This document shows positions 3,030-25,657 of a stretch of DNA of 25,657 nucleotides, piece after piece (within the stretch, counting starts at the first letter, position 1; each line of letters opens with the position of its first letter). The stretch spans positions 1 through 25,657 of IMG/VR virus record IMGVR_UViG_3300023284_000984; one strand, written 5' to 3'. The notes under the pieces were generated by a model. It was not told the origin of the DNA and made no database searches. It saw only the letters and a program-made list of their open reading frames with translations. A program made the translations under genes and the position numbers. The DNA is from a virus.

Positions 3030-3998
3030 TTAAATACCCTCGGCTTTAGCAACCGATAATGGATAATAAATTAAAACACCACCAAAACGTTGATGAGTTG
3101 GAACGATAAATTCTAACCCTTTCATTTGAACAGGTAGTTGTTTGTAATCACTAGGAATTTCCATTGATAAATGCTCAGAATCACGCTTGTAAGCAATTAG
3201 TAAATCAGTGTTACCAGCGCCGGCCTCTTTTAGTTCATTAACCCAATCTATCGCTTTGATATGAGGATTTGAACCTAGAAACCATTCTCCAATTGTCTTA
3301 TCAGACGCAGCGGAAAAGTGAGTTGAAAAAATTAAATTATATTGAGCCAAAGGCATCAACATCATGTCGGCCGTTTCGACCCCGTTAGTATTTTCATGAA
3401 CTGCAGTTGGCAACGATGCTAGATCCCTAACAATTTGAACAGGTGTTTTAGTTGAAAATGTTTTAGTCGCGCCAGTTCCGTCCGCCGGAATAACAACAAC
3501 ATTAACATTTGGATTACTTAAAAACCCTTGTAAGTTATGTTCAACATCACCGAAAAATGCAATGAAGTTTTCTAGACTTGCATCGGCCCGTCTCGCTGAC
3601 ATGGCTTTTCGATTCGTTAAAGGTTTACCGCCCATTTTAGCCGCTTGAACTTCGTCAAAGTTATAACCATAACTTGAGGCGATTGTTCTAACCTTACTAG
3701 TAAACTCTTTTCCTTGAACGTCAGCTCGAGGCAAATCGTCCGCATAGTTTGAAATGATTTTCGCCATCCCAATTTGAGAAAATTGTTCGTAAGTAATTGT
3801 TTCGGCCCCTGCGTTTGCCGTGAAATCTGGCATAAACAAAGAACGCGCTTTTAAAAGAGGATATTTAATATCATAGGTTTTGGCCTTGATATGCTCTAAC
3901 TCTCTCGCGAAAAATATTGATTCACCCTCATCTAATAATTCTAGGTTATGATACTCGCGCGGGCATTCGTCGAGTTTTTCCCATTGTGGTTTTTCCAT
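3030..3998 (-). CDS. Major capsid protein, DUF2184-like
   Basis: This 322-residue protein should be the HK97-fold major capsid subunit. It has the features of DUF2184 capsid proteins: an N-terminal arm with FFARELEHIKAKTYDIKYPL, then LFMPDFTANAGAETITYEQF leading into the long helix region (GMAKIISNYADDLPRADV). A mid-protein stretch of ENFIAFFGDVEHNLQGFLSN precedes a NVNVVVIP strand, and the C-terminus holds QLPVQMKGLEFIVPTHQRFG, the classic late-strand region. A strong AAGGGAG Shine-Dalgarno lies eight bases before the ATG. The gene follows the cement gene and is followed by a hairpin terminator, fitting high expression. Confidence 0.88.
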   Translation of the reverse strand: MEKPQWEKLDECPREYHNLELLDEGESIFFARELEHIKAKTYDIKYPLLKARSLFMPDFTANAGAETITYEQFSQIGMAKIISNYADDLPRADVQGKEFTSKVRTIASSYGYNFDEVQAAKMGGKPLTNRKAMSARRADASLENFIAFFGDVEHNLQGFLSNPNVNVVVIPADGTGATKTFSTKTPVQIVRDLASLPTAVHENTNGVETADMMLMPLAQYNLIFSTHFSAASDKTIGEWFLGSNPHIKAIDWVNELKEAGAGNTDLLIAYKRDSEHLSMEIPSDYKQLPVQMKGLEFIVPTHQRFGGVLIYYPLSVAKAEGI

Positions 3999-4045
3999 TT
4001 CTAAAACTCCCTTAAGTTTTAAAGTTTATATTAAACGCCCCGCTA

Positions 4046-4522
4046 TTAGAGCAATTCTAGTAATGCAAATTCCCCAGCGCCAGCGCCTTCGAGCCAACGA
4101 GCGTCTGCTAATTCCGCAGCGTCACCGCCACCAGCATCCGAACGGAATAGACCTTCATCACCGTTTTGAAAGTTAATAAAAACGCCAGAATCAGTATCAA
4201 CCGCGTCCTCAACCTTAACGTAAACAGTTCCCCTAGTTAAAATAGATACTGTATTTGTATCAAGATACCTTGGAGATAATCCATTTTGAGGATTTTCGTT
4301 AGCATGAGACTGCAGAGCAACCCCTCTAAATCTTTTAATATCAGTTATATCTAATGCGGCCGCTGGCAATTTAGATTGTTTTTCCTTAACCGTTCCTTTG
4401 GCAACTGCGCGACCAAATGGAATGGCACCTTCGGCGGCTAAACTGATAACTCTATCAGGACCGATATCGCCTTTTAATCCGTCGAATGCCTTTGCTTGTT
4501 CGTCATAATTAGTTTGTGACAT
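4046..4522 (-). CDS. Capsid cement / decoration protein
   Basis: A 158-residue protein matching structural cement proteins, which bind the outside of the expanded capsid and stabilise it. Marks are a short N-terminal tail, GAIPFGRAVAKGT (the family's i-fG-aV--g pattern), FRGVALQSHA, NTVSILTRGTVYVKVEDAV and a C-terminal strand set. All four describe the small beta barrel seen in this family. The Gly/Ala/Asp-rich segment near residue 130 is probably a surface loop. A strong AGGAG Shine-Dalgarno precedes the ATG by seven bases. Its place between the protease/scaffold and major capsid genes is the usual one. Confidence 0.8.
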   Translation of the reverse strand: MSQTNYDEQAKAFDGLKGDIGPDRVISLAAEGAIPFGRAVAKGTVKEKQSKLPAAALDITDIKRFRGVALQSHANENPQNGLSPRYLDTNTVSILTRGTVYVKVEDAVDTDSGVFINFQNGDEGLFRSDAGGGDAAELADARWLEGAGAGEFALLELL

Positions 4523-5889: not shown

Positions 5890-6792
5890 TTAGATAAAAC
5901 CTAATTTCATCGTTTCGAAATCCGGTTCACCCCAACATCGACATTGAATTTCATCGCCCGGATGAATTCCGCCGGGTGCTCCGGTTGACCATAAGAATCG
6001 AGTACCATCGAAACCGGCATGTCGTGGACGAACTCGACTATCGTCAGAATCACGCCAAAAATAACCAATAATACCGGCCTGCGTTTGTCGCAAATGGCTT
6101 AGTTGCCCGTTTAGTTTATTGATTTGATCGCGAGCAATTAAATCGGCGCGCGTTTTGGCCATCGAAAACCTAGACACTAGACCCAATTCATCTTTTCCGG
6201 TTCCTAATAATTTTTGGGCGATTTGTTCGTGTCGCCATCCTTTTAACATTCCCTCATTAACTATTTGTTGGGTTTGATTAATGAAAGTATTCGAAACATT
6301 GGCGATTAAGTTAGCGTTATTAATGGAAAACGTTGTCAGCATCTCGGCCAGAAACGGGTCGCCTTGAACTAAATCGATTCCTAGGCCCTGGCGGAAAACA
6401 CGATGAATTTGTTGTTTATTCCAATCACTGGTTTCAAGTGAAATCGATTCGGCTAACCGCTCGAGCTCGACTTGAGTTATTTCGCCACCTAAATTCAATC
6501 TAGTCGTTTCATATAGATCCGCGATGACATTCCCGACCGGTTCTATATCAGATTTATAGGAATCACCTCGAAATAATTTATTATCGGCAACCAGTTGAGG
6601 TAAGGCCGGAACAATTATTGAGCGAATTAAATCGGCCGAAATATCTAACGTTTTCCGAACCGATGTTTGATAACTTCGCTCAATTGCTAACGGAGTCTGC
6701 AGACTTGAGACTTTAGTTCTTTTAGTTGTTCGTTTTTTAGCATCTTTTTTATTTATTGATTTATCAAAATGCTTGCAGTGTGGACATGTCAT
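5890..6792 (-). CDS. Minor head protein, phage Mu F / SPP1 gp7-like
   Basis: A 300-residue head morphogenesis protein, normally bound near the portal inside the capsid. The decisive region is residues 253-290: DDSRVRPRHAGFDGTRFLW, then GGIHPGDEIQCRCWGEP. It has the D-s-vr--H---dG pattern and the P-----CrC signature of the Mu F-like C-terminal domain. The middle is helical, with SRFSMAKTRADLIARDQINK, the family's a--iarte--r helix. The extreme N-terminus carries CPHCKHFD, a possible extra zinc knuckle not needed by the family. It abuts the signal-peptide gene upstream and the protease/scaffold downstream. Confidence 0.88.
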   Translation of the reverse strand: MTCPHCKHFDKSINKKDAKKRTTKRTKVSSLQTPLAIERSYQTSVRKTLDISADLIRSIIVPALPQLVADNKLFRGDSYKSDIEPVGNVIADLYETTRLNLGGEITQVELERLAESISLETSDWNKQQIHRVFRQGLGIDLVQGDPFLAEMLTTFSINNANLIANVSNTFINQTQQIVNEGMLKGWRHEQIAQKLLGTGKDELGLVSRFSMAKTRADLIARDQINKLNGQLSHLRQTQAGIIGYFWRDSDDSRVRPRHAGFDGTRFLWSTGAPGGIHPGDEIQCRCWGEPDFETMKLGFI

Positions 6793-12353: not shown

Positions 12354-12482
12354 TTAATTAATCCATTGTAAGTGATCGACTAGGTAACTTCCTAATTGAT
12401 AAAATCCGTAGCCGGTGGCAAAAATGCCAATGATTATAAATAGGCCCATTAGTTTAAAATCGTTCTCGGTAAAAAAATTCAT
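12354..12482 (-). CDS. 42-residue single-span membrane microprotein
   Basis: The ATG at 12482 overlaps the stop of the peptidase-like gene (ATGA), and the TAA is at 12354-12356. The protein begins MNFFTENDFKLMGLFIIIGI and continues FATGYGFYQLGSYLVDHLQW. It has one hydrophobic helix after a short acidic N-terminus. Tight coupling to a C39-like peptidase suggests the two may act together, for example by placing the peptidase at the membrane. That is inference. No family is recognised. Confidence 0.62.
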   Translation of the reverse strand: MNFFTENDFKLMGLFIIIGIFATGYGFYQLGSYLVDHLQWIN

Positions 12483-12880
12483 GGCAACCTCTTGATCTTA
12501 ATAAAAAATATACAAGCCGCTAAGGCTATTTCGTTATTATTGTATTTATTGCTCGGTGACGGATCGTATACGTTTTTACCATCCCAATAAATAGAATGTA
12601 ATCCATCACTTCTCTTGGTTCCACTTGGGACAGATAGAATTGCCGGAGTACTTCCGATTTCTACATTCACCGGCCTATTGAAATTACGGTAAAAGCCTAA
12701 TTTATCTAAGCCGTCTAATTGATTATAATGAAACAATCCTTTTCCATTTTTAATATCTATTCGGGCTGCCAATGGTAACGCTGCCAAAGCAGTTTCGTAA
12801 CTCACGTTCGTTGCCATCGCTAAAGCAGCAACCCCACAATCTTTTTTCAATCGTTGTTTAACTATATTTTCAGGCCGCAT
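12479..12880 (-). CDS. C39-like (papain-fold) cysteine peptidase
   Basis: A 133-residue protein if it starts at MRPENIVKQRLKKDCGVAAL. An in-frame ATG five codons upstream is also possible. DCGVAALAM gives the candidate nucleophile Cys15 with preceding Asp and a Gln at position 9, as in peptidase C39 domains. LHSIYWDGKNVYDP gives His95 and Asp106, in the expected H----------DP order. Length and motifs match the minimal papain-like fold. C39 enzymes cut double-glycine leaders, but phage relatives have no known substrate. It is coded between TerS and TerL and coupled to a membrane microprotein. It is not an obvious endolysin, since no signal or wall-binding part is seen. Confidence 0.7.
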   Translation of the reverse strand: MRPENIVKQRLKKDCGVAALAMATNVSYETALAALPLAARIDIKNGKGLFHYNQLDGLDKLGFYRNFNRPVNVEIGSTPAILSVPSGTKRSDGLHSIYWDGKNVYDPSPSNKYNNNEIALAACIFFIKIKRLP

Positions 12881-13082
12881 GTTTATTAATCTCATCCTCG
12901 TCAAAATCGCAATACTGAATCATGCCATTTAATAAATACTCTGGATTAACTAACGATTCATTACCGCATTGGCAACGACATGCTCGCAATTTGCATTCGG
13001 GGTCATGGTCATCAATAACAGTTAAGGCCCCAAATTTGGAGCCTTTAATAATCACTTTTACCGATGGAATTTTATTTCTCAT
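12870..13082 (-). CDS. Small zinc-knuckle protein, HNH/AP2-associated N-domain type
   Basis: A 70-residue protein: VIIKGSKFGALTVIDDHDPE, then CKLRACRCQCGNESLVNPEYLLNG and a YC near the end. The pattern (G--fg-L-V--------------C-CdCG------Ll-g--k-C) is that of the N-terminal zinc domain of phage HNH or AP2-type DNA-binding proteins. The usual downstream nuclease or AP2 domain is absent, so this is a stand-alone module or a truncated relic. Its 3' end overlaps the peptidase gene. A role in DNA binding is inferred only. Confidence 0.65.
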   Translation of the reverse strand: MRNKIPSVKVIIKGSKFGALTVIDDHDPECKLRACRCQCGNESLVNPEYLLNGMIQYCDFDEDEINKHAA

Positions 13083-13623: not shown

Positions 13624-13826
13624 TGCTCGCGCATAAAGGTGCTAACTTCTTGAATACTTAAACTTTTAATGTATTTATCCGGAGCGTTTTTTAATAACTC
13701 GACATCTTTGTTGTCCATGTAAATGTCGATTCTCACGTTTTTGATATAAGATTGTAATTGCTCGGCCTGATAATAACTAATCGGTTTTCTTTTCTTCATC
13801 TTTGGAAATTTGATCAGTTTCCCCAT
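13596..13826 (-). CDS. Unknown 76-residue basic-start protein after TerS
   Basis: The product starts MGKLIKFPKMKKRKPISYYQ and continues helically (AEQLQSYIKNVRIDIYMDNKDVELLKN, then IKSLSIQEVSTFMREQWTLM). It overlaps the 3' end of the small-terminase gene by 50 bp. A start at 13799 (MKKRKPISYY) is also possible, and neither start has a strong Shine-Dalgarno. The basic N-terminus with an amphipathic helical body could bind nucleic acid or TerS, but nothing diagnostic is seen. Confidence 0.5.
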   Translation of the reverse strand: MGKLIKFPKMKKRKPISYYQAEQLQSYIKNVRIDIYMDNKDVELLKNAPDKYIKSLSIQEVSTFMREQWTLMKSDD

Positions 13827-14640
13827 TATTTACGCCCCGTGCCTTATTATCTAGGTTTTTGACGAGATCCGCAAATGTATTTACTTGTACCTTACCTTCA
13901 AACTCAATTTTGTTTTTCTGACCGAGTAAATTGATTCCCAAAAACTTAAGCATATTTGTGTCGCCACCTATCGCACTATTGATTTGAGAACGTCTAATAG
14001 CTATTTTAATGCCCTGAGAACGACGATCATAGTATTCGCTAAAGGTTATTCCATATTCTTTTTTAACTTTCGATCGGAGCGTGTCCGGATGCAAATCAAA
14101 AAAGCCTGCTATTTCATTAATTGCACAGGCCATCGAACATAAATAGTCAAGTTCACGCCAAGTAAATGGAGCATTTGGCCGGCCAATTTTCTTATATTCA
14201 TTATCTATCTGAGCGAAATATTGAGAGTTATCTTGTTCCATTTGCTCAATATCTTGTTCCATTTCGTCACGCAATTTGCATAATCGAGACGATAATTCAC
14301 TGGCCTTCAAACAACCCATTAATCGTTTATCAACTTTAGATGTTCCAAAGAATTGAACCAATTGGGTTCTAATCGATTCTCGTTCCTTTGGAGTTAAACT
14401 TTTTTCACGTCCAGACTTACCGGCTTGAACAATTTCGGCGGGCAATATTTGGTCCGGAACCTTGGCTTTAGGTTTTGGCCCTCGACGTCTCGGAGTCGAT
14501 CCGTCTTTATTTACTTTATGTTTTTTAGCAGTGAAAACAGTTTTCGTTTTCTTGACGACCTTTTTTTTTGCAACCTTTTTCTTAACGGTTTTTACCTGGG
14601 CCGCTATCTGTTTTTCTAAATCTTTTTCAAAGTCGTCCAC
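13777..14640 (-). CDS. terS: Terminase small subunit (likely), with Lys-rich N-terminus
   Basis: A 287-residue protein with a GTG start (AAGGG eight bases upstream). It should recognise the packaging site and load DNA onto TerL. Residues 18-65 are extremely Lys-rich and probably disordered. From about 165 the sequence reads WRELDYLCSMACAINEIAGF, FDLHPDTLRSKVKKEYGITF and SEYYDRRSQGIKIAIRRSQI, then GGDTNMLKFLGINLLGQ. This is the helix-turn-helix and phage-terminase-small pattern in which residues resembling i----l------W-----G follow a recognition helix. A Glu/Met/Gln coiled coil near 130-150 could drive ring formation. It is the first gene of the minus-strand operon, next to the divergent control region. 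Confidence 0.75.
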   Translation of the reverse strand: MDDFEKDLEKQIAAQVKTVKKKVAKKKVVKKTKTVFTAKKHKVNKDGSTPRRRGPKPKAKVPDQILPAEIVQAGKSGREKSLTPKERESIRTQLVQFFGTSKVDKRLMGCLKASELSSRLCKLRDEMEQDIEQMEQDNSQYFAQIDNEYKKIGRPNAPFTWRELDYLCSMACAINEIAGFFDLHPDTLRSKVKKEYGITFSEYYDRRSQGIKIAIRRSQINSAIGGDTNMLKFLGINLLGQKNKIEFEGKVQVNTFADLVKNLDNKARGVNNGETDQISKDEEKKTD

Positions 14641-14942
14641 TTACAAGGCCCTTTTATCGATAAGTTTTGATTAGTTAATTAATTGATAACCGAAAATAAA
14701 CCGTTTTATTTCAAAACCTTATTCGCTCTCATTCCAGTTTCAACCTATATAATTGAGTTGTCAATTTCACGGTTTCCAAGCTAGCGAAATTCGGTCGTCT
14801 CATGCGCTCGTCGCCCCCAAACCCCTTTAAAAAACCACGAATGGGATTAACCTAGCCTCAGAATGGCTTTAAATGGGCGTTTAGAGCATAATGTAATGAA
14901 ATGGGTTAACGAATAGGCGCGTAAGTTACTGTAATCGTTTTT
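14641..14942. other. Gene-free left half of the divergent control region
   Basis: About 300 bases upstream of terS with no supportable gene on either strand. A GC-richer island (about 14790-14830) with repeated CGTC/GTCG words stands out from the AT-rich surroundings. A related pair AATGGGATTAAC (about 14840) and AATGGGTTAAC (about 14898) recurs. The late-operon promoter and perhaps the packaging recognition site would be expected here by position. A TTGACA at 14759-14764 on the minus strand has no acceptable -10 box at 16-18 bp, so I do not call it a promoter. Confidence 0.5.
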
Positions 14943-15396
14943 AGGTATGTTTATATAGTAGTGTATACCGTTGATATTATTGGATTTAAATACATCTATA
15001 CTTATGAGGTATGAATGTATTGCAACGTCAGGTATGTTTTAAATATAGTCTACATCGCTGACATTATTGGACTTAAATATATATTATCGTTTTTAAATAC
15101 ATCTATACCTACTTTTCCCGGATATAGCTATATATAAAGAGACTAAAAAGCAGTATATTGCATATATTGCAAGTAACTTTTACCCTCTCTATAGCTATAT
15201 ATAACTAGATATATATATAATAATAAGTATAGATGTATTTAAATGGAGTGATTACATAGAGTTGGATTGCAATATATTTATACCTCGACTCATATATGAA
15301 CATACCTGAAAAGTATAGTTGTATTTAAGCGTAGTAATATTAACCAGTTGGATTGCAATATATTTATACCTTGATTTCTAGGATAAGTATGTTTAT
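14943..15396. repeat. Four-unit inverted repeat array (operator/promoter hub or origin)
   Basis: Two units on the left (from 14943 and 15030, 87 bp apart) contain AGGTATGTTT, a GATATTATTGGATTTAAATA-type core (variant GACATTATTGGACTTAAATA) and the box TTTAAATACATCTATAC (14985-15001 and 15092-15108). Two units on the right (15225 and 15311, 86 bp apart) carry the same boxes in reverse: GTATAGATGTATTTAAA (15227-15243), a variant AGTATAGTTGTATTTAA (15312), and a shared 25-bp core starting GTTGGATTGCAATATATTTA (15261 and 15347). The 20-mer TTTAAATACATCTATACTTA at 14985 is the exact reverse complement of 15224-15243. The array is very AT-rich and lies between divergent operons. Binding sites for a phage regulator, phage promoters or origin iterons are the main options. 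Confidence 0.8.
15123..15204. repeat. Central repeat-bounded palindromic segment of the array
   Basis: TATAGCTATATATAA occurs exactly at 15123-15137 and again at 15190-15204. Each copy is itself nearly self-complementary. Between them, AGAG...TAAAAAG on the left is mirrored by CTTTTA...CTCTC on the right, leaving a small TATATTGCATATATTGCA centre. The centre of this segment (about 15164) nearly coincides with the symmetry point of the nearest outer boxes (15092-15108 and 15227-15243, centre about 15168). That suggests one symmetrical site, such as a melting region of an origin or a looping operator. Confidence 0.65.
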
Positions 15397-15399
15397 ATT
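15371..15399 (+). promoter_or_regulatory. Sigma-70-like early promoter candidate
   Basis: TTGATT (15371-15376), a 17-bp spacer, then TATATT (15394-15399) make a good match to a vegetative bacterial promoter. Transcription would begin near 15406, about 32 bases before the first gene of the plus-strand operon. The -10 overlaps an AAGTATGTTTATATTGCA sequence related to the repeat boxes, so a repeat-binding protein could compete with RNA polymerase. Confidence 0.5.
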
Positions 15400-15437
15400 G
15401 CACATTCTATATTTTATATATGAACCTAAGGAATAAA

Positions 15438-15647
15438 ATGGCTAAAGTTAGAACGGCGGACAAAATTATCAAGGAAAACCTAGCGTTACCGGACAAGTAT
15501 AAAAACTTAGGCGTTATCAAAATGCTTGAAAAACAAGAAAAGTTAATCAAGGAATTTCAAACACTGGGACATACTAGAGACGATTTTTTTGCTATGGCCC
15601 GAGAAGCACTGTTAAATAAAAACCAAGTAAGATCAATATTAATGTAA
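15438..15647 (+). CDS. Unknown 69-residue protein, first gene of the plus-strand operon
   Basis: The product begins MAKVRTADKIIKENLALPDK and is helical and basic throughout (MLEKQEKLIKEFQTLGHTRD). I chose the ATG at 15438 rather than an in-frame ATG at 15420 because AAGGAAT lies just before it and the same 20-bp leader precedes the next gene. As the first product of the early operon it may be a regulator or host-takeover factor. No family is recognised. Confidence 0.65.
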   Translation: MAKVRTADKIIKENLALPDKYKNLGVIKMLEKQEKLIKEFQTLGHTRDDFFAMAREALLNKNQVRSILM

Positions 15648-15660
15648 CCTAAGGAATAAA

Positions 15661-15987
15661 ATGGCCAAGACAGCGTCAACGAATGACCAAGATTTTTCAC
15701 AACTAACCGAAATGCAACAATTCGTATTATCCTTTATTAATGAGCGGGCCAAACAAGATCCTAAATTTAGTAATAAAGGCATGAAGTCCTTTTATATTCA
15801 GAACGCCCGCCTCGACAAATTACGTGAGTTTCTACCGACTGTTTTCACCGGTGCCGGATCTATGAAAAAGTCTGAGATGCTAGATTTTATGTTGTTCCTT
15901 TTAGAGAACTATTTAAAAGGTGGCGGTTATCCAGAATATGAAACTTTTAATGAATATTACGAACGGACGGACGGGGGTCGGAAATGA
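15661..15987 (+). CDS. Unknown 108-residue early protein
   Basis: The product starts MAKTASTNDQDFSQLTEMQQ and has a helical body, with a C-terminal module (FTGAGSMKKSEMLDFMLFLL, then ENYLKGGGYPEYETFNEYYE). The MKKSEMLDFMLFLLENYLK helix pair faintly recalls ribbon-helix-helix proteins, but no preceding strand is evident. Its leader AACCTAAGGAATAAAATGGC repeats that of the previous gene exactly. It overlaps the next gene as ATGA. Confidence 0.6.
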   Translation: MAKTASTNDQDFSQLTEMQQFVLSFINERAKQDPKFSNKGMKSFYIQNARLDKLREFLPTVFTGAGSMKKSEMLDFMLFLLENYLKGGGYPEYETFNEYYERTDGGRK

Positions 15988-16304
15988 GTGACTTTAAACA
16001 ATCGAAAACTCAAGTTGAATTTTTAGAGGACTTACAAGAAAAATTGAGTCATATCAAAATTACAGATATTAAAGTAGACCAGCATGGGGCCGATAACCCG
16101 GATAAAACTTATATTGTTGTCTATGGCGACAATTTAAATAAACCACAAATTCAAAAAGCTGAGGTCGATTGTATTCAGCGCAATTATGATAACAAAAAAA
16201 GATTGATGCAAGTACTCTCGACTGGCGAGGAAAAGAAACATACCTGTATTCACGGTATCGAGACGATGGAATCTTGTGACGAATGTATGGAAATATTTAA
16301 GTAA
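15984..16304 (+). CDS. Unknown 106-residue protein with C-terminal zinc knuckle
   Basis: The product begins MSDFKQSKTQVEFLEDLQEK. A central beta segment (TYIVVYGDNLNKPQIQKAEV) is followed by a coiled region. The end, CIHGIETMESCDEC, matches the short C-x-H-G-I-----C-x-x-C zinc knuckle found at the ends of many small phage proteins. The knuckle is probably structural. The gene is coupled to the one before it by ATGA. Function unknown. Confidence 0.65.
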   Translation: MSDFKQSKTQVEFLEDLQEKLSHIKITDIKVDQHGADNPDKTYIVVYGDNLNKPQIQKAEVDCIQRNYDNKKRLMQVLSTGEEKKHTCIHGIETMESCDECMEIFK

Positions 16305-17121: not shown

Positions 17122-17621
17122 TACAATTAACTAAAAATATTAGGTTTCAGTGGCATAAAAAAATATGCTTATTTGATTTCACCCGGACTAAAACAGTGAA
17201 TTTTTTAGGACTAGGATATTGCTCTTTAATAATATGTAAACCAGCCAAGGCGGAAAAAATGTTAAGCGAAGTTAATGAATTAAAAGTTTTGACCAGAAAA
17301 AGTTTAGAGTCAGTTTTTAGAACTCAATACAGTCAATTGCAAGCCGAAGTTTTAAAAGGTACTTGTATAAAAGATCGATTAAAAGAATTGATTCCGATTA
17401 TCGCACTTAACTGCGACGGTGAAACTAAACAAGAGGTCAACGGTCGAATACGTGCGCTACTAGTTTGGCTCGACGGTAATTCTCAATTTCAATTTCAAAA
17501 TGACTTAAAAGGTAAGCCAGATTTAATTGTTAGTTATTCGAATTTGTATTGGGGACTTGTTGGAATAATAATAGGCAACTTGTTAACCAGAGCTCTGACA
17601 TATATAGTGGGGAATTTGTAA
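17118..17621 (+). CDS. Unknown 167-residue protein with C-terminal membrane segment
   Basis: The product begins MIQLTKNIRFQWHKKICLFD. A basic, aromatic N-terminal segment is followed by a helical domain (residues about 48-130) and a C-terminal hydrophobic helix (LYWGLVGIIIGNLLTRALTY), which suggests tail anchoring. Codon 48 is an ATG (17259) with AAGGCGG in front, the strongest initiation signal in the gene, so a shorter 120-residue product is possible. The first ATG has only a too-close AAGGA and may depend on coupling. Confidence 0.6.
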   Translation: MIQLTKNIRFQWHKKICLFDFTRTKTVNFLGLGYCSLIICKPAKAEKMLSEVNELKVLTRKSLESVFRTQYSQLQAEVLKGTCIKDRLKELIPIIALNCDGETKQEVNGRIRALLVWLDGNSQFQFQNDLKGKPDLIVSYSNLYWGLVGIIIGNLLTRALTYIVGNL

Positions 17622-17773
17622 TGAATGGAATAGATTTAAACGACCCAAGGTTAAACATTTCCGATGAAATGAGGCATGAATTAATCTGCAGGTTTAGTCA
17701 CGAAGTATCAACGATACAATTATTATTATATTTACTAGAAAACGAAAGTAAACGACGAGAGGGGTTAATATGA
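17621..17773 (+). CDS. Unknown 50-residue protein
   Basis: The product begins MNGIDLNDPRLNISDEMRHE and ends in a helix (FSHEVSTIQLLLYLLENESK, then RREGLI). The ATG at 17621 overlaps the previous stop (TAATG) and has GGGGA upstream. An earlier in-frame ATG lies well inside the preceding gene and is unlikely. It ends in ATGA with the next gene. It may form a small helical oligomer; no function is known. Confidence 0.6.
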   Translation: MNGIDLNDPRLNISDEMRHELICRFSHEVSTIQLLLYLLENESKRREGLI

Positions 17774-19780: not shown

Positions 19781-21121
19781 ATGGACATTGAAAAAGAATT
19801 ATTACAGGCCATCAAGTCGGGCCGAAACATATTCCTAACTGGCGGTGCTGGCGTTGGAAAAACTTACTGGCAAAATAAAATTGTCGATAAATTCGGCTCC
19901 GACTTATTAATTGTCAGAACTGCGCTAACTGGCCTCGCCAGCTTACACGTCCAGGGCCAAACTATTCATAAATTTACCGGGATTGGAATCAATAACCACG
20001 TCTCGCAATTACAATATATAATTAAAACAAGAAAGTTTCGAACTCAAACCATGTATGATATTGAGGATTGCGACATTTTATTTATAGATGAAATATCAAT
20101 GCTACGCTCTGACGTTCTCGAATTATTAGATGCCTTGTTCAAGTATGTAATGGATTCGGAAAAACCATTTGGGGGTAAACAAATCGTTTTCGCGGGCGAT
20201 TTCATGCAACTCGCCCCAGTCGTAAAGCGTAATGATAATTTACCAATGTTCTGGGCTTTTCAATCACCGGTTTGGCCCCAGTTAGGTTTTAAGAATATAA
20301 ATTTAAAAGAAGTTAAGCGCCAAACCGATAAGGAATTTAGCAGTTGCTTGAATTGGATTCGTTGCGGCCGGAACGCCATGACTCCTCAAATAGAGCAAAT
20401 GATTTCTAACTATATTTATAATACTAGAAACAATGTAATGCCAGAGGGGGTTGAACCTATTAAATTGGTTTCAACTAATGATGAATCCAACCGTGCCAAT
20501 AATAAAAAGCTAAGAGAGTTGGATTCGGTTATGGAAACTTATATCGCTAAAGTTGAGGGTATCTCTGAAAAACATATCGAGACAATTAAAAAGGATTGCC
20601 CGGCCCTAGAAACTTTAAACATTAAAATCGGAGCTCAGGTGATGACTCTTAAAAATGATTTTAACGGTGAATATATAAATGGGTCAATGGGCGAGTACCT
20701 GGGCCTAGAGAATCACGAAGTAATGACTGGGGTTTTAGACGGCGAACCATTATTGGAAATTGAAAGTTGCATGAAAATAAAAATATTTGATTCCAAGAAA
20801 ATCATTTACGTTCCTAAAGGCCAATGGGAAAACGAGAAAAAGAAATTCGATCCGATTACGAATGAAGTTGTTCGGGAAACCTTGGCCATCTTTGAGCAAT
20901 ATCCAGTTAAATTAGCATATGCAATTACGGTTCATAAAAGTCAGGGCATGAGCTTGGATTACCTAGAGGTTGATTTCAGAAACATATTTATGCCCGGTCA
21001 AGCATACGTGGCATTATCCAGGGCCAAAACATACGAGGGATTAATCGTTCGGAATTGGTCGATATCGAAAGTAATAACCAGCGCGGCGGCGTATGAATTT
21101 TATATGGGGTTAGATAAATGA
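19781..21121 (+). CDS. Pif1-type DNA helicase
   Basis: A 446-residue 5'-3' superfamily 1B helicase. Motif I is GGAGVGKT at residues 21-28, then TGLASLHVQGQTIHKFTGIG (motif Ia region). Motif II is DEIS at 103-106, followed by FAGDFMQLAPV near 138 (motif III). The C-terminal half has AYAITVHKSQGMS near 385 (motif V) and YVALSRAKTYEGLIV near 410 (motif VI, with its Arg). The length is close to phage Pif1 and Dda-like enzymes. It probably unwinds DNA or clears proteins during replication or recombination. It ends in an ATGA overlap with a mini P-loop protein. Confidence 0.92.
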   Translation: MDIEKELLQAIKSGRNIFLTGGAGVGKTYWQNKIVDKFGSDLLIVRTALTGLASLHVQGQTIHKFTGIGINNHVSQLQYIIKTRKFRTQTMYDIEDCDILFIDEISMLRSDVLELLDALFKYVMDSEKPFGGKQIVFAGDFMQLAPVVKRNDNLPMFWAFQSPVWPQLGFKNINLKEVKRQTDKEFSSCLNWIRCGRNAMTPQIEQMISNYIYNTRNNVMPEGVEPIKLVSTNDESNRANNKKLRELDSVMETYIAKVEGISEKHIETIKKDCPALETLNIKIGAQVMTLKNDFNGEYINGSMGEYLGLENHEVMTGVLDGEPLLEIESCMKIKIFDSKKIIYVPKGQWENEKKKFDPITNEVVRETLAIFEQYPVKLAYAITVHKSQGMSLDYLEVDFRNIFMPGQAYVALSRAKTYEGLIVRNWSISKVITSAAAYEFYMGLDK

Positions 21122-23501: not shown

Positions 23502-25657
23502 TTACCCCAGTTTAATAAAAACCCCTTTTCGGGTTTGTCCGTTAATCCAATTATTTTTATAATCTGTACATCTTGGATGCCGTCTCAATAGTCCTATGTA
23601 ATCTGAATAGTTTGAAACTTTTCCTAGCTTATCTTTTAAATGAACGTTCCCGACCATGAAAAATAATTCATGAGATTGATAATTATATTTTATGCCGTTA
23701 AACGCTAAAACCCGGTCATGAGCTTCGAGGTTTGTTGCTAATGGATTTTTTCTCATCGACTCGACTATTTGCCCAACCGACATAGTGCTATTGTCCATTG
23801 ATAATTGCATTATTATAGATAAGCATTTCTCGGAATCTGATTCGGAATTAATCTCAACATAGTCAGAACCTTCGAAGTTTATCATTTCAACTAACTGGTT
23901 TATGGTTTCGGTCTCGATTAATTCATTTGAAAAGAATGAAAAATAACCAGCTAGTATTGGCGATAACTGATCCGCTAATCGGGCCTCGTATTTCATTGCT
24001 TTTAAATGAACTTTGCATAATTCAATATTTTCCATAGTTGTTTTATAATGGTTTACCATGCGAGAAAATAATAGTGGGGCGAACTCTTTAGCGTTGGCCA
24101 TTGCGTTTTCTAGTGCGATTAATTCCTCGTGGGGTTGGCCGTGAACCGTATTCATTTCAATTACAAAAAACCTAGAATCGTCGGCCGAGTTGAATGATAA
24201 TTTTTGAATAGAACCTAAGCAGAAAATTGCGTTCGTATTATACTTAATACCTTTTCCGCCCGGACTACCTCGCAATATATTTCCGGTTGTCCTAGTCGAG
24301 CAATGGCGGGCCAATTTAACAACGTCAGCCATTTGGTTTCTATCCCTCTCACTGTTAGGCTCTGATTCGTCATAGACTACAGCTTTAGAATTATTTTTTA
24401 ACTCTTGCTTGATACCGGCGGCGGTTGAATCTGTTATCGATATTGAAATTGGAATCAATGAATAGATCCAGTCTAATATAGTCGATTTACCGGAACCTTT
24501 CGAGCCTGTTAAGTAAAGATGTGGTCGCCAATGGAGCGCCCCGGATATCTGAGCAATAGCGATCCATCCTAATAGAAATATATAATCGTTCTTATTCTTA
24601 TATAGTAATTTTTTAAAAGCATTAGTAATTATATTGGCTTGCTCATAATTTAATTGTTTAGTGAAATCAACCTCGACGGATTCCCCAGCCTCATAGAAAA
24701 ATTTTGTCTTTATGTCATGATTAAAAATTGGCTTGTATTCATTTTTATAATAAATCTGATCGCCCAAGTTAACCGCAATCTCGCCATTCTCAAACCAACA
24801 ACCTCGGCCCCTAATGTTTTCCGGATTAAAAAATCCGGCCTTAGTTTGTTCTATCCCTAGTTTCTCAACAACCATGGTCCAATTGGGCGCGGTCTTTTCG
24901 CCTTCGGCATCTTTAAGCCAACCGTAACGGTCACCCCAATATTTTCCCGGCGCCATTAATAAAAACTGATTCTTATTATGCTCATTTGCAGTTAATGGAA
25001 ATATTCTTTTTTGATGAGTAGCAAAATAATAGTTATGCTTTTCAAAATAACCAAGCGGAACTATTTCAGAAAAATCCGAAACGTCTATTCCAAGTTGTTC
25101 GCGAACCGCCTCGATTCCCTCGAAACAATGTAGGTCATTATAATCCGACCATGATTCATTCCCAGCATCGAACCTAACGGTTCTAACTAAACAGTTTGAT
25201 AATTTAAACGCCGCCGTCCTAGCTTTTTTCTCGCCAATATTATTTAAATGTTGTTCCTTATGGATATCTCGGTCGGCACAAAATATTATTTTACAGCTAG
25301 GATTTATTTTCCTAATGGCCATTGCGCCTTGTAAAATATTTGAAGTGTCCCAAACTATCCCAACGGCGGTTTCATCGTTACCGACGGCCTCATAAACAGA
25401 GCCGCCAGTTGCAAAGCCTTCGACAATGAAAACATATTCAGCGGTTTTAATATTTCCTATTGGACAAAAAGAACCTAGCTTTTCAATTCCGTAAGTAAAC
25501 ATTTTGAGAAAACGCTTAGAATTTGCTCCAGTGTTATTATTATACTCGGAGTTGGCCAGAATACGTTGGCAACCAACAAAACCAAACTCATTATAACTAG
25601 GGATATATAGAACCCCATTAAAATCAATGCGACCAAGGTAGTTCGAATTAATCTTTT
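23502..25657 (-). CDS. Phage primase-helicase with Toprim and P-loop domains (5' end outside window)
   Basis: The reading frame is open to the right edge (717 residues visible), so the internal ATG at 25502 is not the true start. Upstream codons give NYLGRIDFNGVLYIPSYNEF, GFVGCQRILANSEY and SKRFLK, the G-l-ip--n--G---g-Qri-----KrfLkG region that precedes Toprim in TraC/P4-type primases. Toprim has VEGFATGG (78-85) and ADRD near 127. A zinc-ribbon start may lie outside the window. The C-terminal half has a P-loop LTGSKGSGKST (about 378-388) and VVYDESEP near 427, as in DUF927-like helicase domains. It likely primes and unwinds DNA during phage replication, with two small genes in the same operon. 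Confidence 0.85.
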   Translation of the reverse strand, partial: KINSNYLGRIDFNGVLYIPSYNEFGFVGCQRILANSEYNNNTGANSKRFLKMFTYGIEKLGSFCPIGNIKTAEYVFIVEGFATGGSVYEAVGNDETAVGIVWDTSNILQGAMAIRKINPSCKIIFCADRDIHKEQHLNNIGEKKARTAAFKLSNCLVRTVRFDAGNESWSDYNDLHCFEGIEAVREQLGIDVSDFSEIVPLGYFEKHNYYFATHQKRIFPLTANEHNKNQFLLMAPGKYWGDRYGWLKDAEGEKTAPNWTMVVEKLGIEQTKAGFFNPENIRGRGCWFENGEIAVNLGDQIYYKNEYKPIFNHDIKTKFFYEAGESVEVDFTKQLNYEQANIITNAFKKLLYKNKNDYIFLLGWIAIAQISGALHWRPHLYLTGSKGSGKSTILDWIYSLIPISISITDSTAAGIKQELKNNSKAVVYDESEPNSERDRNQMADVVKLARHCSTRTTGNILRGSPGGKGIKYNTNAIFCLGSIQKLSFNSADDSRFFVIEMNTVHGQPHEELIALENAMANAKEFAPLLFSRMVNHYKTTMENIELCKVHLKAMKYEARLADQLSPILAGYFSFFSNELIETETINQLVEMINFEGSDYVEINSESDSEKCLSIIMQLSMDNSTMSVGQIVESMRKNPLATNLEAHDRVLAFNGIKYNYQSHELFFMVGNVHLKDKLGKVSNYSDYIGLLRRHPRCTDYKNNWINGQTRKGVFIKLG

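Follow-up and report, generated by a model that had tools for sequence, protein, structure and literature searches.

The window analyzed here is a 25,657-bp IMG/VR virus record of an uncultured tailed phage, in which a noncoding interval separates two divergent gene blocks, with early genes on one side and packaging genes on the other (Table 1). The leftward block includes genes for the portal and the large terminase subunit (terL), and is headed by a terS-like gene recognized by its position before terL and by the relatives found for it. From our reading of the sequence and synteny, positions 5890-6792 of the same block would encode a Mu F-like head protein. Elsewhere, an open reading frame (ORF) at 12479-12904 carries a QxxxDCGVAALAM motif and, by the look of it, resembles C39-type papain-like peptidases. 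The rightward block opens with two small early genes, each preceded by a near-exact repeat (22/23) of a ribosome-binding leader, AACCTAAGGAATAAAATGGC, at 15423-15445 and 15646-15668. Relatives were sought for the first of these genes and none were found, and the only rightward-operon genes found to be shared across related phages are the second early gene, orf108, and the Pif1/Dda-like helicase gene. No Rfam family matched in the window.

Table 1. Features of the window at and around the intergenic box array (+ and − after a position give box orientation)
Feature	Position	Strand	Remarks
terS-like gene	13777-14640	−	First of the leftward packaging/head genes
Left (distal) arm	14943-15110		Boxes 14943+, 14985−, 15007+, 15030+ (degenerate), 15068− (degenerate), 15092−
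Conserved element AATAATATCA	14972-14981	−	Between two distal-arm boxes; exact in L045 and L128; second copy at 15059-15068 with one mismatch
Box AAGTATAGATGTATTTAAA	14985-15003	−	Exact copy at 15225+
Box AGGTATAGATGTATTTAAA	15092-15110	−	
AT-rich core	15111-15224		Between the arms; aligned with the cores of five relatives
Conserved core element ATCCGGGAAAA	15113-15123	−	ATCCGGAAAA in L127 and L137; one mismatch in L045
Short central dyad TTGCA-TATAT-TGCAA	15158-15172		Centre 15165; read from the sequence; weak alone in the window
Conserved core element TATATATAACTA	15196-15207	+	TATATATAACTT in L045 and L137; shortened in L126; one mismatch in L128; window orientation opposite
Right arm, early-gene side	15225-15403		Boxes 15225+, 15267−, 15289− (degenerate), 15311+, 15353−, outer 15385+
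Box AGGTATAAATATATTGCAA	15267-15285	−	Exact copy at 15353−
First early gene	15438-15647	+	ATG at 15438 after AAGGA (ORF tool start 15420)
orf108	15661-15987	+	Second gene of the rightward early operon; proposed DNA-binding partner
Pif1/Dda-like helicase gene	19781-21121	+	In the rightward early operon
Toprim primase-helicase gene	23502-25502	Opposite to the rightward genes	Downstream of the Pif1/Dda-like helicase gene

The intergenic interval is densely repetitive. An exact 20-bp inverted match reported in the initial annotation is confirmed at all 20 positions (14985-15004 is the reverse complement of 15224-15243), as is a third exact copy of the 17-mer at 15092-15108. Longer units recur with a period of 87 bp on the left (53 nt, 77% match) and 86 bp on the right (64 nt, 81% match), and whole arms at 14943-15013 and 15301-15371 are 70% complementary over 71 nt. 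Exact 17-mer pairs within 14900-15420 comprise 11 direct and 7 inverted ones, against means of 0 and 0.004 in 500 shuffles, which control for dinucleotide content and not for how the region was chosen; the repeats are real and far beyond chance. The spacings on which the annotation based its long repeat units are genuine, but the elementary repeat is not the unit: the units resolve into a single box of ~19 bp, AGGTATRNATRTATTKMAA, found in both orientations. About 11-12 copies, nine of them strong and the others degenerate, all lie within 14943-15403, so that the array begins where it had been placed and ends at 15403 rather than at 15396. A leave-one-out matrix gives nine boxes scores of 14-21 bits, with low scores for the degenerate copies at 15030 and 15068; the box at 15289, which was scored two bases out of register, is also listed as degenerate. 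No strong box occurs elsewhere in the window, where the best match reaches 12.7 bits.

The boxes form two arms that are mirror images of each other. Read from the outside in, box offsets are 0/40/64/87/127 on the left and 0/40/62/86/126 on the right. The core between them is part of the AT-richest 400-bp stretch of the window (15037-15436), and 15122-15241, at 78% AT, ranks among its three AT-richest 120-bp stretches. A symmetry about 15165, as originally proposed, holds for a short dyad centred there, whereas the centre of the arms falls anywhere between 15157 and 15168 depending on the pair of boxes used. In two relatives, L045 and L128, the same place is occupied by central palindromes with 10-bp arms containing GGTTAG/CTAACC, longer than the dyad of the window. 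The interval shows no excess of promoter-like matches over shuffled sequence.

Related phages were reached by alignment of the primase and of TerL: TerS, orf108 and TerL used as close-relative queries against viral contigs gave no match, and blastn of the interval against phage records gave none either. Among 84,980 genomes no close host or prophage relative was present, and a single distant TerS match was returned. The nearest relative, the fragment L127, shares 81% identity in TerL and 66% in TerS, while L045 shares 58% in TerL and 48% in the primase; a further fragment, L044, is the closest relative by primase (78% identity), and its contig ends before the array region. The primase and TerL alignments further yielded L126, L128 and L129, the end of which is L137. 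L045 and L129 have terminally redundant records of ~45.6 kb, which suggests that both genomes are complete. As an aside, the pif1 operon of L044 contains a gene for a helix-turn-helix protein (17189-17653; Pfam HTH_31, E = 1e-4, below cut-off).

In L045, L126, L128 and L129/L137, the block of genes associated with the Pif1-like helicase opens with a small gene (the helicase itself lies beyond the end of L126), and a cluster of boxes lies directly upstream of it, starting roughly 100-200 bp before the start codon and in mixed orientation. The box itself differs between lineages: GGTAAC in L045 (orientation ----++++) and, in a mixed pattern, in L126; CGGAAC in L128 (counted as GGAAC; ----+++++); and GGACTC in L137 (-+--+), a weaker case with five copies. 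These boxes were picked by eye before counting, save where a blind scan of 6-mers agrees. That scan gives the cluster first place in the window, in L126 and in L128, gives it second place in the L045 genome, and leaves the GGACTC cluster outside the top three in the L137 genome, so that an array is well supported in three relatives and moderately so in the fourth. In both of the terminally redundant relatives, box clustering is confined to the array site. L127 retains the core elements, one strong full box and half-boxes; with that single full box and a record that stops short of the early genes, it offers weak evidence of box conservation. Scanning of those distant TerS relatives (L151-L175) that are long enough revealed no comparable array.

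Conservation in related phages, on which the initial annotation had staked its reading, therefore takes a different form from the one anticipated. The exact 17-mer has 33 matches in 2.9 million viral contigs, which is chance level for AT-rich DNA, and none in contigs encoding relatives of 24 window proteins; it is not conserved beyond chance. What the relatives keep is the architecture and the core elements, with boxes that are lineage-specific. TATATATAACTT, ATCCGGAAAA and AATAATATCA keep their order across the oriented arrays, each being present in some, not all, of the six sequences. Eight 10-mers occur on the same strand in at least three of these arrays, where 100 shuffles gave a mean of 0.2 and a maximum of 2; several of these 10-mers overlap one another or consist of plain TA repeats, which makes the excess smaller than the bare number would imply.

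The surroundings of these arrays hold further features of their own. Between array and terS, L045 (15490-15723), L126 (about 1390-1560) and L137 (about 3923-4102) share a noncoding stretch with about 72-86% identity in short blocks, which ends near terminator-like hairpins, has no Rfam match and was not seen in the window; it is possibly an undescribed phage RNA. L045 also carries a tRNA-Asp (GTC) between array and terS (15917-15995). Small genes upstream of terS in L045 (16994-17191), L126 (3599-3793) and L128 (8797-8997) resemble CsrA, the L045 gene matching Pfam CsrA at E = 0.026, below cut-off. L126 encodes an Rrf2-family regulator (2195-2614; E = 2e-18), and 1354-1749 of L129 looks alike.

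The initial annotation saw no obvious partner gene for the array in the window, a view that the relatives overturn. Their array-adjacent small proteins are related to each other, and a profile built from four of them, with the window left out, retrieves orf108 as its sole match among 232 window ORFs (E = 5.8e-8; next ORF 0.57), making orf108 the window's member of the array-adjacent family; in direct BLASTP comparison orf108 matches the L045 protein at E = 5e-7. The family is poorly conserved, with 21-27% identity to the window protein as compared with 47-48% for the primase. We read its pattern, in which a short strand precedes two helices and N[KR]SEQIDF is conserved, as resembling that of ribbon-helix-helix repressors. 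The predicted structure of the L045 homologue has a strand at 20-27 and helices at 28-41 and 50-65 (pLDDT 86-88 over the helices), and the model of orf108 itself is poor (pLDDT 54). Searches of the family against Pfam, PHROGs, NCBIfam and PDB sequences gave no ribbon-helix-helix match, and Foldseek and second-look structural searches gave no ribbon-helix-helix structure and no informative match, the sole weak match being the BrnA antitoxin (E = 0.053, below cut-off). Because no family or fold library confirms the assignment, we term orf108 ribbon-helix-helix-like. Given the recurrence of the arrays beside its family, orf108 probably binds the boxes.

The anatomy of the interval and its synteny lead us to favour, at about even probability, a multi-site operator of orf108 where the early and late genes diverge, one capable of looping and autoregulation. 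In such a mechanism orf108, made from the adjoining early operon, would bind as dimers to the boxes of both mirror-image arms, and contacts between dimers on opposite sides of the AT-rich core could loop or bend its DNA. Transcription would be the output: orf108 would control its own early operon as well as the leftward packaging and head genes. Many copies of one short box are clustered at the putative regulator's own operon, as expected of an operator. Both the box sequence and the orf108 family vary between lineages, over four or five compared genomes that are too few for a covariation analysis. In L045, L126 and L128, where terS lies 1-3 kb away with genes between, direct control of the packaging genes would be less natural. 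A parallel in anatomy is the p4/p6 switch of phage phi29, where four inverted-repeat sites bound by p4 lie between the early promoters A2b and A2c and the late promoter A3, and p4 switches these promoters (PMC3100819). Both regions hold several inverted repeats between early and late transcription on opposite strands, bound by an early phage protein in phi29 and putatively so in the window, and in phi29 the protein drives the DNA into a hairpin (PMC3100819). The phi29 sites differ in number and consensus (four copies of CTTTTT-15 bp-AAAATG).

The cooperative binding of a phage regulator or initiator suggested by the initial annotation fits the clustered, mirrored boxes and the arrays beside a small early gene in the relatives. 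The main rival to the operator is a replication origin, in which the boxes would serve as iterons, with orf108 or the phage primase-helicase as the initiator, and the AT-rich core as the unwinding element; we regard this as possible, if rather doubtful. Box arms stand on either side of an AT-rich core that contains a dyad, the juxtaposition of iterons and AT-rich element looked for in an origin; no other 400 bp are as AT-rich as the array, either in the window or in the terminally redundant L045 genome; L045 has no other mixed-strand cluster of comparable strength; the core elements are kept while the boxes change; and the phage encodes both a primase-helicase and a Pif1-like helicase. Against this, the array of the L137 genome is not among its AT-richest stretches, no DnaA-type box was seen by eye in the interval, and the primase is conserved far better than the boxes. 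Strictly lytic phages may show no strand-composition switch, and here third-codon-position skews give no replichore signal, while the raw skew has its minimum at the array, where the coding strand changes, and turns back over the leftward genes at 22-25 kb. A primase-helicase is present, and no known initiator family was found among the proteins scanned. Iteron origins such as the RepA origin of the PLE satellite likewise contain repeated noncoding boxes, which there are bound by a phage- or satellite-encoded protein (PMC7145576), but no RepA_N-like initiator was recognized in the window, where origin activity is putative. A literature search for phage iterons in an early/late intergenic region found none.

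The remaining explanations each account for part of the anatomy and are much less likely. Terminase sites such as lambda cosB and SPP1 pac carry repeated boxes, and only 0.3 kb separates the array from the downstream terS in both the window and L127, as might be the case for a pac or cos site of the small terminase; yet in L128, L045 and L126 other genes intervene and the distance to terS is ~1-3 kb, while the array is always beside the orf108-family gene. Since it stays with that gene and not with terS, a packaging site is improbable. Promoters of a phage-specific transcription system, also raised in the initial annotation, would suit a site between divergent operons; this reading is most unlikely, since no other operon start in the window has a strong box and the relatives' boxes keep to the array site, as opposed to a motif shared by many operons, and there are far more boxes, facing both ways, than two promoters would need. 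Equally unlikely is a partition centromere of the parC or parS type, bound by a ribbon-helix-helix centromere protein. The parC of plasmid R1 is bound by a small repressor protein from the adjoining operon, a likeness to the arrangement proposed for the window. ParR of R1 occupies two sets of five repeats (PMC4949242), which recall the two arms, but the R1 repeats are direct whereas the window has inverted arms, and no segregation ATPase of the ParA type turned up. In pSM19035, omega/ParB is a ribbon-helix-helix protein on heptad repeats in direct and inverted orientation (PMC9499535); those 7-bp repeats are contiguous, unlike the ~19-bp boxes spaced 20-40 bp apart in the window, for which no ParA was found. 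More generally, a ParA-type ATPase (PF13614) is absent from six records including the two terminally redundant relatives, with the control positive in 14 genomes, and the gene content, with no integrase, is lytic. An attP with arm-type sites was rejected, tyrosine integrase (PF00589) being likewise absent from six records including the two terminally redundant genomes. The lack of integrase and ParA-type genes in the relatives disfavours attP and parS even though the window record itself may be incomplete.

Taken as a whole, the array looks like the central regulatory, and possibly also replication, site of the phage. A bolder reading, which we hold as a speculative outside chance, is a combined origin and early/late switch in an undescribed clade of tailed phages, run by an orphan ribbon-helix-helix-like family, with boxes replaced in each lineage and the two-arm geometry and core held fixed. 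The array points to a likely central cis-acting site of such a clade and names its likely partner, an orphan protein family that matches nothing in Pfam, PHROGs or NCBIfam. The collected relatives, with box types of four kinds, offer a ready test of joint change in protein and site, one that is invisible from one genome. Should the array indeed have origin activity, the start of replication and gene switching would be joined in one mirror-symmetric site.
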